NCBI RefSeq assembly: GCF_009741825.1
Contig: NZ_WPCA01000010.1
Span: 1-34,751 of the forward strand
DNA from: Halapricum sp. CBA1109
GTDB lineage: Archaea > Halobacteriota > Halobacteria > Halobacteriales > Haloarculaceae
Reading direction: 5' to 3'
Length of the DNA: 34,751 nucleotides
The first letter of the stretch is position 1. Every line of letters starts with the position of its first letter. Shown in pieces: positions 20,932-30,623 of the stretch. The position numbers were made by a program, and so were the translations under genes. Under the pieces are notes generated by a model that searched no databases, was not told the origin of the DNA, and was given only the letters and a program-made list of their open reading frames with translations.

Positions 20932-22317
20932 CTACTCGAAGCGACAGTCGAAGTCCTCTGGCGGCGTCGCGTCGTCGGGCGTCACGTCGCCGATCAGATC
21001 GACGCCGTCGATCCGGATCTGTTCGTCTCCCGTGGCTAACTCGTTCCGGCCGATGGTAAGCGGGAGCGTGGGGTTCTCGAACGTCGCCTGCGCGCCGTCC
21101 GGACACCCCTCGCCGGGGTCCTCGAAACAGCGCTGGTAGTAGACGTCAATTCCATCGAGGTCCGTGTCGTCGCCCGTCAGGGTGACCGTCTCACAGTCCT
21201 CGAACGTGACGTCGATGTCCTCGCCCGTGTCGAAGGAACAATCGAGGTCGTCCGGTGGCGTCGCGTCGTCGGGCGTCACATCGCCGAACAGGTCGACCGC
21301 GTCGATGCGATACACCTCGTCACCGACGGCCAGTTCGTCCCGACCGAGGGTCAGCGGGAGGTCGGGGTTCTCACGCGTGACGATCTGTCCGTCCGGACAC
21401 CCCTCGCCGGGGTCCTCGAAACAGCGCACGAGATAGAGCTCTATCTTCTCGAGGTCCTCGTCCGGCCCGCTCAGCGTGACGGTCTCGCAGTCCTCGAACG
21501 TGATTTCGATGTCGTCCGTCTCGAAGCCACAATCGAGGCTGTTTGGCTTACCGAAGGTGTCCTGCTCTACGTCGCCCCGGAGTTCGATCCCCGCGATGTA
21601 GTAGGGCACGTCGTCGTCGACGGCCAGATACCGGTGGTCGATTGTCAGCGGGAGGGTCGGGTTCTCGATGTTCCTCCCGCCCGGGACGCCGTCGGGGCAC
21701 GGGCCGTCGCCGGGGAAACAGCGGAGGGGATGGAAGATAATCTCGTCCAGCCCCTCCCCCGAACCCGTCACCGAGACGGTCTCACAGTCCTCCCACGTGA
21801 CCTCGATCCCGCCGCCGTCGTCGTCACACGGGGGCGACCCGCACGCGTCGCCCGACTCGCCCGCCGGTCGCTCGTGGGTCGAATCCAACTGCTCGCGTTC
21901 CGCTTCGAGGGCCGCTTGGGCGCATTCGTTCGGGTTCACCCACCTCGTGCCCGCCACTTGGAGGCCGATAATCTGCCCGTCTGGGATCCCCTCGCTCTCG
22001 GTGGACACACAGAAGTCGCCGCTGTAGCGTGGCTCCCCCGTCGGATAGGGGTCTATCTCGCCGTCGCCGACGAGAAACCCGACCTCGTATCCGCCGTCGT
22101 CGGTCTCCCGTGCCACGAGTACGTCAGCGTTCCCCTCCACACAGACACAGAGCCGGTCACAGCCACAGAAGACCGGTTCTCCTCGGACTCGGTGGGCACT
22201 CGCGGTGCCCGTGAGGCCGACGCCGGCAATCGCTCCGGCCCCGACCCCCTTGAGCACAGTTCGGCGGTTCACACCACGGTCGGTACCATCTCCGAGTGAC
22301 GAATTCCAACTCGCCAT
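20932..22317 (-). CDS. Tat-exported protein with three cysteine-bearing repeats
   Basis: A 461-residue secreted protein. Tat signal NRRTVLKGVGAGAIAGVGL at 18-36, cleavage near SAHR. A Cys cluster CGCDRLCVC (Cys51, 53, 57, 59) follows, then a linker to about 165. Three tandem ~95-residue repeats occupy 171-263, 270-360 and 368-458. Each runs from (W/F)EDCETV through RCF, GxCPDG, LPLT to LDC-like ends, with four cysteines in fixed spacing (for example 277, 299, 307, 360), suggesting two disulfides per repeat. I know no named family. A surface-binding or structural role is a guess. The ATG at 22317 has TAATACC 29-35 bases upstream. Confidence 0.82.
   Translation of the reverse strand: MASWNSSLGDGTDRGVNRRTVLKGVGAGAIAGVGLTGTASAHRVRGEPVFCGCDRLCVCVEGNADVLVARETDDGGYEVGFLVGDGEIDPYPTGEPRYSGDFCVSTESEGIPDGQIIGLQVAGTRWVNPNECAQAALEAEREQLDSTHERPAGESGDACGSPPCDDDGGGIEVTWEDCETVSVTGSGEGLDEIIFHPLRCFPGDGPCPDGVPGGRNIENPTLPLTIDHRYLAVDDDVPYYIAGIELRGDVEQDTFGKPNSLDCGFETDDIEITFEDCETVTLSGPDEDLEKIELYLVRCFEDPGEGCPDGQIVTRENPDLPLTLGRDELAVGDEVYRIDAVDLFGDVTPDDATPPDDLDCSFDTGEDIDVTFEDCETVTLTGDDTDLDGIDVYYQRCFEDPGEGCPDGAQATFENPTLPLTIGRNELATGDEQIRIDGVDLIGDVTPDDATPPEDFDCRFE
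20944..21807 (-). repeat. Three tandem ~290-bp coding repeats
   Basis: Units at 21529-21807, 21238-21510 and 20944-21216 encode the cysteine-bearing repeats. Units 2 and 3 share long identical stretches (for example the segment encoding CFEDPGEGCPDG and GDVTPDDATPP), so they arose by recent duplication. Unit 1 is more divergent. Confidence 0.75.
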
Positions 22318-22634
22318 AGCTGGGCCTCCGAGGGGGGAATTGATAGGTATTAGCGGCTTACGCAGTGGGTGTGTGGTCTGTATCACGTCGGATCACGAGG
22401 GGCGGATAGTGTACACGAATTCTAAGAACATTGATTTTTTCTGGCAGTAACTCTTCCATTTCAGCCGTCGACTGATTGTTATTTCAGTGAAAATTTCCGG
22501 ACGGCACGCTGCCCTGCTGTCCACTGACTGATGGGGATGGCTGTATCGTCGGTAATCTGTCGCTACCACCCCAGCCATCGACGGAAACGGGGTTGGGCCG
22601 GTCGTTTATACCGACGGACCGCCACAGTGGAACT
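22318..22634. other. AT-richer divergent intergenic region
   Basis: A 317-base gap between divergent genes. It contains the TATA-like boxes of both, and a notably AT-rich stretch (about 22410-22500) with a T6 run near 22434. I see no ORF, tRNA or repeat that I can support. Its base composition differs from the rest of the window. Confidence 0.5.
22605..22610 (+). promoter_or_regulatory. TATA box for cbiX
   Basis: TTTATA lies 25-30 bases before the ATG at 22635. This selects that ATG over the upstream in-frame codon at 22593, which precedes the promoter. Confidence 0.6.
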
Positions 22635-23564
22635 ATGGCAACGTTGGTCATCGCGGCGCACGGGTCACACCTGAATCCGGGGTCGAGCAGTCCGACGTAC
22701 GCCCACGCCGACACCATCCGGGACGTGGGTGGGTTCGACGCCGTCCGGGAGACGTTCTGGAAGGAGGAACCGCACTTCCGTGAGGTCCTGCGGACCGTCG
22801 ACGACGACGAGGTGTACGTCGTCCCTCTGTTCATCAGCGAGGGGTACTTCACGGAGGAGGTCATCCCCCGGGAACTCCGACTTGAGGAGTGGGACCCCGA
22901 GATGTGGGATTCCGACGGCACCGACGCGAGTCAGGCGACACTGACCGCCGCCGACACGGGCCAGACAGTCCACTACTGCGGGCCGGTCGGGACCCACGAG
23001 GCGATGAGCGACGTCATCGTCCGCCGGGCCGAGAGCGTCACCGGCGACGACGAGGTGGGCGAGGGGTTCGGCGTGGCCGTCGTCGGTCACGGCACCGAGC
23101 GAAACGAGAACTCCGCGAAGGCTATCAAGTACCACGCCGACCGCATACGCGACCGCGACCGATTCGAGGAGGTGAAGGCGCTGTTTATGGACGAAGACCC
23201 CGAGGTAGACGACGTGACAGAGTTCTTCGAGAGCGAGGACAGCGAGGCGCTACGCGCCTCGGGCCGTTCGCACGGGCGACGCCCGTGCGAAGACATCGTG
23301 GTCGTCCCCCTGTTCGTCGCCGACGGGTACCACACCCAAGAGGACATCCCCGAGGATATGGGGTTGACCGACGACTACCGCGAGGGGTGGGCGACCCCGG
23401 AGACGGTCGACGGCCACCGCATCTGGTACTCCGGGGCCGTGGGGACCGAACCGCTGATGGCCGACGTGATACTCGAACGGGCGGCGGACGCGGGCGCGCC
23501 GGTCGGCGATGCGCTCGACCGGGTCCGCGAGGTCACCGGTGGGGCGGCGCTGGCCGGGGACTGA
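22635..23564 (+). CDS. cbiX: CbiX-family sirohydrochlorin cobaltochelatase
   Basis: A 309-residue protein with two CbiX-like halves: VIAAHGSHLNPGSSSPTYAH (residues 4-23) and VAVVGHGTERNENSAKAIKY in the middle. The His-Gly-Ser/Thr motifs carry the metal-binding histidines. CbiX inserts Co2+ (or in some systems Ni2+ or Fe2+) into sirohydrochlorin for cobalamin synthesis. Residues 204-219 (EALRASGRSHGRRPCE) are encoded by a double palindrome of 48 bases that looks like an in-frame insertion just before the strand DIVVVPLFVADGYH. The DR2241-type Fe-S protein downstream is the usual partner. The metal cannot be told from sequence. Confidence 0.88.
   Translation: MATLVIAAHGSHLNPGSSSPTYAHADTIRDVGGFDAVRETFWKEEPHFREVLRTVDDDEVYVVPLFISEGYFTEEVIPRELRLEEWDPEMWDSDGTDASQATLTAADTGQTVHYCGPVGTHEAMSDVIVRRAESVTGDDEVGEGFGVAVVGHGTERNENSAKAIKYHADRIRDRDRFEEVKALFMDEDPEVDDVTEFFESEDSEALRASGRSHGRRPCEDIVVVPLFVADGYHTQEDIPEDMGLTDDYREGWATPETVDGHRIWYSGAVGTEPLMADVILERAADAGAPVGDALDRVREVTGGAALAGD
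23244..23291. repeat. Double palindrome inside cbiX
   Basis: Two adjacent perfect hairpins: GAGGCGC-TAC-GCGCCTC (23244-23260, 7-bp arms) and TTCGCACGGGC-GAC-GCCCGTGCGAA (23267-23291, 11-bp arms). Together they span 48 bases, a multiple of three, and keep the frame open. This looks like a palindromic element inserted into a surface loop, comparable in principle to Rickettsia palindromic elements. Confidence 0.65.
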
Positions 23565-28112: not shown

Positions 28113-30623
28113 TTACAGTTCCGGCACGGCGAGGTGGAACTTCTCGTCGCGGGCCTCGACCAGACAGAGGTGGAAACCTTGCTTGCGCGAGAGGCGGACG
28201 AAGCTCTCGCGCTTGTCGCGGCTGAGCAGGCCGCCGCCGGTCGCTTCGGCGGCCGTCTCCAGCGCGTCGGGGTCGAAGAAACTCGCCGTGACCTGGAACG
28301 CGCCGGCGAGGGTGTCGCTGGTCTCGCCCACGCGGGTCGCGGCCGTCACCAGCGAGGTCATCATCTCGTCGGTCGCGGCGTCGCGAGTGTCGTTGATGTT
28401 CGCCACCGCGAGAGGGTTGCCCATCCGGTCCCGGAGGACGATGTCGAACGCCTCTTGGGTCCGGTGTTCCTCGCCGTCCTCAGTGTAGACGACGCTTGCG
28501 GCCCCGTTGAGTTCCGCCCGGTCGAGCCGCGGGAGCGCGTCGTAGAGGTCCTGTAACCCCGCGTCGTGGCCTGTGTCGCTGATCTCGTACAGCAGGTCGT
28601 GGACGACCCAGTGGACGAACCGGTACTGGATTGTCGACTCGAGGAACGCCTCGAAAGGCTGGCCGTTCACGGCGGCGTCGTCGCTGTCGAACTGGGTGTG
28701 ACACTCCAGTTCGAGGTTAGCCTCGACGGCCTCGCGGTCGGCGCGCCCGTCGTGGGCGGCCTCGAGGGTCGCCTCGCCTTTCGACCCGTAGCGCACGAAG
28801 AGGTTCGTGCCGTCGATTGCTTCCTGTGGACTCAACTCCACCGACGCGTCGACGCCGGCGGCCCCGCCCTCGGATTCGAGCCGCGTCTCCAGTCGCTCGA
28901 CTTCCGACCGTAGCCGTTCGACCTCCTGTCGTAGGTCCTCGCGCTCGGCCTCGACCTCCTGGAGTTCGGCGGTCAGTTCCTCGTTCTCGGCGACCAGTTC
29001 GTCGTTCTCCGTCAGGAGTTCCTCACGCTCGCGTTCGAGAGCCGCGAGGTCGTCCTCGAGGGCTTCGATCTCACGCTCGCGCTCGCGGACCGCCGCCGTC
29101 GGCTCGGACTGCTGGGCGGTCCCGCGGCCACTGGGCTCCGGATCGGCACGCTCGCGCCCGCTCATCTCCCGGGGGCTGTTCGAGGGCTGGGCTTGGGACT
29201 GTGACTGGGCGGTGGACTGCGCTTGGGACGTGGCCTGTGTCCCGGAGCCGGACTCCTCGGGGCCGCTGTCGAACGCGACGCCGGCGTCCGGCCCGCTCTC
29301 GTCGCCGGTCCACGACCGGCCCGGATCGACCGACGGGATCGACTTCCGCTCGAGGTCGCCCGCCTCGCCGACCGATCCGCCGTCGTCGCTCCCGTCGGGG
29401 TCCGCGAGCGGGTCGGTCGGCGGTTGGTCGCCCGCCCCGGACGCCTGTCCGTCGGCACCGCGGCGCTGGTCGTCCCGCCGTGGCGGTTCGGATCGCTCGC
29501 TGTCCCGCTGCGCTGAGTCGTTCCGCTCGCTGTCCCGCTGTGGGGGGTCGGCCCGTTCGTCCTCCCGGCGCGCCGGTGCCGCTCCGCTCCTGTTCGGCGC
29601 CGCCTGTTCGTCGTCCCGGTGTCGGGGCGCCTCGCGGTCCCGTCGCTCGGACGGTCGGTCGTTGTCGGCCGTCGAGCGTGTGCGCCGGTCTCGCGTCGCT
29701 GCCGGGATCCATCGCGGTCCTGCCGTTCGGGCGACCGGTTACCCTCGGCTGTCGACTGTGTCTCCCGACGGTGCCGCCGGCGGTCGGACTCCCGGTCCGT
29801 CGAGCGCTCGGACGCGTCGTCGGGGTCGTCGGCCGCCGCCGTCGCCGGGGCGGTCGACGTGGTTCGTCGTCGTCCTCGGTCGAGTCCACGGGGGCGGCCT
29901 CGCGGTGTGCGACGCCGCCGCTCGGGCCGTCCTCGTCGGCGTCGGCCTCGTCGGCCGCCGGTTCGTCCCCCTCGCGTTCCGCCGTCGGTCGGTCCTCCGC
30001 CGTCGCCGTCGGTTCGCTTTCCGTCGACTCCGCCGGCTCTGTTTCGCCCGCAGCGGCGACAGCGCCGGCGTCGTCGTCCTCGGGCGGGTCCGGGATCTCG
30101 ACTGGTTCGATCTCCGCCGGATAGACTTCGTAGATGCCGACCTCGTCGTCGGCCTGTTCGAAGGCTTCGTCGTCGGTGAGCAGGCGACTGCTCTCGCCGA
30201 CGAAGGCGACGCTCATCGAACGGCCGCCGTGGTAGACGACGTAGTAGTCGCCGCTGAGGACGTTCTCCGAGAGTTCGACGTAGCCGGTGAAGCCGCCGTC
30301 GGATAGCTTGTGGTCGGCCGCCGACAGGGCGGTCTCCTCGCTGTAGTACTTCGCCCGGACCTCGTCGCTCCGGTCCTGCATCACCAGCAACAGCGGGAGG
30401 GCAGGCGACGGTGCGTCCCTGATCGTCCCCTCGGCGTCCTCGAAGTCCTCGATGTCCCCGTCGAGGACGCGACGACCGTCCCGTTGAGGAACGCGGCCGT
30501 CGCGCGCCCGGCGGTGACGATGCCGGAGAACTCCTCGTCGGCGAGGGCGTGGAGGCCGGCGTAGCCGTCGGTGAACGGTCTCGAGGACCACTCGTCGGTG
30601 CGGTCCGCGACGCGTGTGGTCAT
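28113..30623 (-). CDS. Long coiled-coil protein of unknown function (DUF7527-like), three frameshifts
   Basis: One gene of about 837 residues in three frames. N-terminal domain: TTRVADRTDEWSSRPFTDGY, then GLHALADEEFSGIV and, after a missing base near 30470, VLDGDIEDFEDAEGTIRD, LPLLLVMQDRSDEVRAKYYS, DYYVVYHGGRSMSVAFVGES. A long acidic low-complexity linker follows, with two further one-base losses near 29860-29872 and 29690-29705. Then comes a coiled coil (EREREIEALEDDLAALEREREE and onward) and a C-terminal globular domain (FVHWVVHDLLYEI, LAVANINDTRDAATDEMMTS, FVRLSRKQGFHLCLVE). No catalytic motif is recognised. The start at 30623 fits AAAGTATTT at 30650-30658. Three same-sign losses restore the frame overall. 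Confidence 0.72.

Follow-up and report, generated by a model that had tools for sequence, protein, structure and literature searches.

Rickettsia provides the best-known cases of in-frame palindromic inserts that supply protein sequence. The Rickettsia palindromic elements (RPE) are described as short palindromic repeats, about 150 bp in length, that lie in frame in unrelated protein genes, where they keep the frame open and encode a conserved peptide (PMC10969869). Several other kinds of small palindromic repeat come close to this description in one respect or another. The PATEs of Haloquadratum are described as palindromic, transposase-free and tiny, with no clear target duplication, and they include 52-bp derivatives of IS605 that retain only the termini (PMC3119063). 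Some REPs, which are multi-copy hairpins, are reported inside coding regions (PMC3733652). MITEs, and small mobile repeats in archaea and in enterobacteria, are likewise described as small, transposase-free and sometimes intragenic (PMC10969869, PMC2759123). Finally, perfect inverted repeats are reported inside the translated genes of Nematomorpha mitochondria (PMC6649704). In its main text, a survey of bacterial and archaeal REPs uses no word that starts with "halo" (PMC12306157). No description of the haloarchaeal in-frame element presented here turned up in the literature searched, from which subscription journals were mostly missing.

The window analyzed here is the whole 34,751-nt stretch of Halapricum sp. 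CBA1109 (contig NZ_WPCA01000010.1). A cbiX-like gene at 22635..23564 of the + strand is the host of the element. Its translation is a two-domain CbiX of 309 aa, with a match to Pfam CbiX PF01903 at E 2.8e-30 and to NCBIfam NF002670 at E 3.4e-165; the best stretch of the latter stops at residue 202. Codon alignment to orthologues with an empty site delimits an in-frame insert of 54 bp at 23235..23288 (+), comprising 18 codons and residues 201-218, EDSEALRASGRSHGRRPC. The preliminary description, made from this DNA alone, had an insert of 48 bp and 16 codons; it was right about the frame, and the orthologues extend the length. A placement at 23241-23294 is equally valid because GAGGAC (23235..23240, +) and GAAGAC (23289..23294, +) flank the insert. 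These are the left and right halves of an imperfect 6-bp direct repeat around the core, seen both in the sequence and in the codon alignment, and the right half overlaps the end of a hairpin. Identical at 5/6 positions, they are a possible target duplication at cbiX. At the inserts in argB described below, inspection by eye found no consistent flanking repeat.

The element proper occupies 23241..23291 (+), whose 51 positions are columns 1-51 of two covariance models, R1 and R2. Hairpin 1 (23243..23261, +) pairs CGAGGCGC at 23243-23250 with GCGCCTCG at 23254-23261, which are model columns 3-10 with 14-21, to give 8 bp closed by a 3-nt loop. A spacer GGCCG (23262..23266, +), similar by eye to that of a second variant of the family described below, separates it from hairpin 2 (23267..23291, +), which reads TTCGCACGGGCG A CGCCCGTGCGAA. 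The arms of hairpin 2 are 12 nt around 1 nt, equivalent to 11 bp with a 3-nt loop. The two perfect hairpins initially reported are thus present, with arms of 8 and 11 bp rather than 7 and 11. Folded as single-stranded DNA, the element reaches -25.4 kcal/mol (z -4.7). We defined a tandem pair as a stem of at least 8 followed within 12 nt by a stem of at least 11. The window holds one instance, and 0/60 dinucleotide shuffles hold any; stems of at least 11 average 0.3 per dinucleotide shuffle, and the window contains 29 stems of at least 8. The palindromic nature of hairpin 2 means that SHGRRPCE is encoded on either strand of 23267-23291 in the listed open reading frames.

In an AlphaFold2 model of the CbiX protein, the mean pLDDT is 89.7 and residues 202-208 and 210-214 fall below 50. 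This low stretch sits between a helix (191-198) and a strand (220-225), a predicted pattern that fits a tolerated, flexible loop. Its frame suggests that the insert is translated, and CbiX would accommodate it as a disordered loop, probably one that has no function. A different insert of 16 residues, around ERSDSPNSRASRTESDGE, occupies another loop of CbiX in G127 (L043, ~1005-1070) and is possibly another type of element.

The 48-mer of the preliminary description has no near-identical second copy in its own genome (2.97 Mb, 79% complete). After its own reverse strand, its best match there is 25 nt at 92%. What the genome does hold is diverged relatives, with 30 full-length R1 matches at E<=1, the majority of the strongest being coding. 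A lack of further copies, named in the preliminary description as a ground for refutation, thus applies to near-identical copies alone. Two other copies in this genome, C66 and C260, encode SEARRASENASGDEPRA and REAPRASEEASGDEPRA, which align residue by residue with SEALRASGRSHGRRPCE of the window. R1 was built from 35 copies, and because some of those are from cbiX, we also built R2 from 31 copies, none of them from cbiX. R2 finds the window copy at 37.3 bits (E 5.9e-8 in 48.7 kb), so its membership of the family is upheld by a model with no cbiX training; R1, whose training set included the copy, gives it 54.9 bits. A typical copy is 51 nt long, with a range of 45-57 bp among the coding copies examined. 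Hairpin 1 comes first, followed by a spacer of ~6 nt and then by hairpin 2, in which a tandem G.A mismatch (CGAG...CGAG) is conserved.

A pattern for the two hairpins, allowing up to 3 mismatches, yields 41 matches in 35/146 genomes of the family, and its reversed control yields 0. At E<=0.1, R1 matches 137/146 family genomes, scoring having been limited to the top 40 candidates of each. In a sample of 294 genomes drawn from the phylum, 47 have a match at E<=0.001, and all 47 belong to the same order. R1 found no match in 6 genomes of that sample listed as the same order or family, nor in 241 more, of which 14 are listed in the same phylum and 227 are listed by neither name nor kinship. The exact pattern picks out 25 stretches in a collection of 84,980 species, every one of them haloarchaeal by record title, from genera that include Haloarcula, Halomicrobium, Halorientalis, Natronomonas, Halomarina, Haladaptatus, Natrialba, Halopiger, Halolamina and Halobium. 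At the sensitivity used, viral contigs gave 0 exact matches to hairpin 2 and phage records gave no match. A search of Rfam at gathering score left the window without a match, and the elements at 8 loci matched no Rfam family either.

A second stretch of the window, 29897-29941 (-), is a weak R2 match (16.9 bits, E 0.0099) and is possibly a decayed copy. Some weaker relatives in the own genome, many of them longer, sit immediately 3' of a gene and in its sense orientation (L123, L126, L128, L129, L132), a position that resembles REPs or terminators. An array of head-to-tail 48-bp units was seen in L294 (G390) at 1411-1600, in frame near the end of an open reading frame, with SEAGSASDETSGDTAS present three times and a partial fourth.

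The hairpin pairs of the family covary across the aligned sequences. The set used for this comprised the 31 non-cbiX copies, which give 28 distinct rows, and 15 named pairs. Standard pairing occupies 97.4% of the cells of the 28 rows, against at most 46.4% in slid controls. Cells changed on both sides number 22, against 4.9 (sd 1.6) in shuffled rows, counts that are not of independent events and are inflated because the rows are partly related. Nearly all copies have the G.A/A.G mismatch (CGAG...CGAG) at columns 30-31/47-48, and the pairs flanking it covary, with G-C, U-A and C-G at 28-50 and C-G and U-A at 36-42. Columns 30-31/47-48 hold a non-standard pair in 29/32 distinct rows. They are paired in 3, all of them cbiX copies: G-C and C-G in the window, A-U and C-G in G031 and G032. 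Where most copies keep CGAG...CGAG, hairpin 2 of the window has CGCA/TGCG and is fully paired. These standard pairs indicate that the window copy drifted to a perfect palindrome with the hairpin retained. It is a diverged member of the family whose second hairpin is now fully Watson-Crick. Inspected by eye, it looks like a second variant found in L288, L289 and its own genome's C46, whose spacer is GGACCRT and whose stem is TTCGAGCGGGC.

The coding copies are read in one frame. A sense frame-0 open reading frame is among the two longest over the element in 28/30 loci from the family (exceptions L063 and L081) and in 22/25 named loci (exceptions L145, L147 and L148). A codon score was also applied; its table was trained on L052-L081, which overlap the first set scored, so that only the set from the order is independent. 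Among the 28 loci of that independent set, the codon score is coding on both sides in 21, on one side in 6 and unclear in 1, and all 27/27 with a coding signal are in sense frame 0. Plasmid matches in Halorussus agree: 5/5 lie inside an annotated CDS, in sense and frame 0, with column 1 of the element opening a codon (phase calculated from the printed coordinates). Their hosts are a thioredoxin-family protein, a glutathione S-transferase-family protein and an FAD-linked oxidase. Other hosts, recognized by eye, include MetRS, LeuRS, IleRS, GlyRS, ArgRS, GlmS and ATP synthase B. The frame-0 peptide of a typical copy is SEARSASESASGDEPRA, and the remaining frames would read as very basic or hydrophobic peptides. 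The own genome has 26 matches at E<=0.05; the codon score is coding on both sides for 4 of them, on one side for 10, and unclear or non-coding for 12, the weaker matches being mostly non-coding. A sample of 13 from G353 divides into 4, 5 and 4 by the same score. Because the models were built from coding copies, non-coding relatives are under-counted.

CbiX was found by protein search in 126/146 family genomes, and the insert site was read in 96 orthologues. The site is empty in 90 and filled in 5; L216 was counted in neither class. The gap that the preliminary description predicted in such an alignment is therefore there, and the segment is not conserved as protein. The five carriers belong to four genera: the window genome G000 (54 bp), G031 (54), G032 (45), G067 (51) and G095 (51); 4/5 of these genomes are incomplete (58-80%). 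A tree of 54 CbiX proteins, made with the insert left out, groups mainly by genus, with carriers beside empty sisters. On this tree the five inserts require five changes of state, as unrooted counts. Since the proteins group mainly by genus, the insert must have undergone either repeated gain or a large number of losses. The copies at this one site are not of one type. R2 gives 53.2 bits to that of G095, which is canonical, and 36.5, 23.9 and 23.1 to those of G067, G031 and G032, and the window copy is diverged. The inserts of G000 and G031 are about 88% alike over the insert, that of G032 is also similar, and that of G067 has spacer and loop letters in common with all three. Sliding identity beside the site is ~0.90 from G000 both to the empty G003 and to the carrier G031, and no transferred tract was seen around the insert in these two comparisons.

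The kinase of ArgB type (NF010661), found in 137/146 family genomes, offers a second site. Of 70 argB loci read, 18 have an insert in one acidic loop (PPMAG...NTDAD) and 52 lack it. In genus g1 the insert comes after PPMAG, in g14 after KD, and in g13 and g10 after AD or ADEG (AD[DE]G); with positions that differ in this way, these appear to be independent events. A quick method counts 17 changes of state on a 54-protein tree built after the loop was taken out. In L399 (G126) and L400 (G125) the same loop has ~10 other extra residues (ADRRSADSETATRK) that are unlike the element. In L374 (G095) and L375 (G072) it is composite, like two elements nested or side by side.

We therefore consider the cbiX insert likely to belong to a family of short, non-autonomous palindromic mobile elements of haloarchaea. 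The family is dispersed over the order, and its strong copies lie in genes that are unrelated to one another, always in sense and with a single frame. Orthologues have clean empty sites, and both cbiX and argB show repeated changes of state at one loop. It is this distribution that points to mobility. The earlier proposal of a palindromic element tolerated in coding sequence in the manner of RPE is supported by the other copies, the frame and the empty orthologues. We would suppose that copies insert at many places, and that genic copies persist only if sense frame 0 gives a hydrophilic, flexible peptide suited to a surface loop. The basic or hydrophobic peptides of other frames would be a poor fit for the proteins of a halophile. 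The insert itself would then be neutral, and purifying selection would leave only the frame with the hydrophilic peptide. We put at about even chances a stronger reading, in which the family is still active across the order and core enzymes receive it again and again in the same surface loops, a hypothetical enzyme reads the G.A hairpin, and new loop peptides are steadily supplied to halophile proteins.

Other histories can be drawn from the same data. A single old insertion into cbiX (and into argB) in an ancestor of the family, followed by many precise deletions, would account for the likeness of the cbiX inserts of G000, G031 and G032 and for the spacer and loop letters of G067, and unrooted change counts do not distinguish gain from loss. 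It demands that most of the 90 empty cbiX genes have had their empty site restored exactly, the argB inserts vary in position within the loop, and the canonical copy of G095 differs from the other cbiX copies; on balance we think it unlikely. The similarity of the G000 and G031 inserts across genera would also be expected if the cbiX segment had moved by gene transfer or conversion, with no mobile element. The flanks have no shared tract, the gene tree is mainly by genus and many genes with no relation to cbiX also contain the element, all of which make this reading very improbable. Selection on a functional, non-mobile RNA or DNA structure (regulatory hairpins, something terminator-like, or a protein-binding site) would explain the strong covariation, the conserved tandem G.A and the non-coding relatives just 3' of genes in sense. 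Presence flips on the trees (5 changes in cbiX and 17 in argB), the host genes are unrelated, and Rfam recognizes nothing in the window or at the 8 loci, so we regard this as improbable, if somewhat less so than gene transfer. That GC-rich codons in low-complexity acidic loops pair by accident or convergence deserves mention because haloarchaeal loops are acidic and GC-rich, and stems of at least 8 are common in the window. The controls already refute it, with the tandem pair in none of the shuffles and 0 control matches against 41 in the 146 genomes, as does the covariation, and we give it almost no weight.

The alternative with the best standing, although we still doubt it, is a palindrome derived from the termini of IS605, that is, a PATE moved as single-stranded DNA by a Y1 transposase. 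The 52-bp terminal-only PATEs of Haloquadratum, described as seemingly mobile without target duplications (PMC3119063), are a precedent; a pair of hairpins and cleanly empty orthologues would be in keeping with this, and tnpB genes are present (7 in G000, 11 in G003 and 25 in G353). Against it, Y1_Tnp was found in only 11/20 relatives. It was not found in the own genome (79% complete) or in G003 and G395, both of which have many copies of the element. R1 at E<1e-3 finds 1 match in 92.6 kb across 28 Y1 loci and 1 in 94.3 kb across 30 TnpB loci of 3 genomes, a density about that of the genome at large and hence no enrichment near either gene. A link to RAYT or IS200-type enzymes is accordingly unsupported. 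The ends of TnpB elements (IS1341-type) were also rejected as a source: most have different palindromes or none, and the stems of those behind tnpB were, by eye, mostly of another kind, with a loop of TTNA type. For the mobile family that we favor, an enzyme acting in trans could recognize the hairpins and move the element as single-stranded DNA, a step we propose with little confidence. Hairpins near L307, L312 and L324 resembled hairpin 1. In L330 and L324 (G003), two close hairpins, GTCGGGC...GCCCGAC and GAGGGA...TCCCTC, lie behind a tnpB open reading frame and are perhaps an inverted relative of the element.

Compared with the described systems, the haloarchaeal element comes closest to RPE. 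Like them, it is palindromic, folds into stem-loops, has several copies per genome and lies in frame in unrelated genes whose orthologues are empty (cbiX, argB and plasmid CDS). It differs in being archaeal and typically 51 bp, where RPE, as described, are bacterial and about 150 bp, and in its two hairpins, its tandem G.A signature and its repeated hits on the same loop in several genera. By analogy of organization, it would work as RPE do, as a shorter, archaeal family. PATEs are the closest published counterparts among haloarchaea, likewise tiny, palindromic and transposase-free. PATE palindromes match the ends of IS605, whereas the element is unlike most tnpB ends examined, and PATEs as described (PMC3119063) include no in-frame peptide inserts. 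Resemblance to REPs and REPINs lies in multi-copy hairpins and in non-coding copies near gene ends. Their GTAG/CGTC tag is absent from the consensus of the 31-35 element copies, the Y1 enzyme is unlinked, and coding copies dominate the strong matches. The two ends of the element, AGCGAGG... and ...CGCGAGCG, are not inverted copies of each other as in a MITE. Its halves are separate hairpins, and comparison with IS605-type ends brought up no terminal inverted repeats that a transposon also has. In the Nematomorpha repeats, as described, both arms encode conserved residues, while the haloarchaeal palindromes form an added loop. Archaeal introns and inteins are removed, which frees their frame and length; coding copies of the element keep one frame and are far shorter than an intein.

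What emerges is an archaeal family of in-frame elements for which the model matches in one genome can number in the dozens. It would explain species-specific loops of SGDEPR type in haloarchaeal enzymes. It also offers a cultivable and genetically tractable system for asking how such elements move, respect the reading frame and feed protein evolution. Elsewhere in the window, 20932-22386 (-) encodes a predicted secreted protein of 484 aa in which three similar repeats of ~85-100 residues (xTFEDCETVTL...) can be made out by eye.
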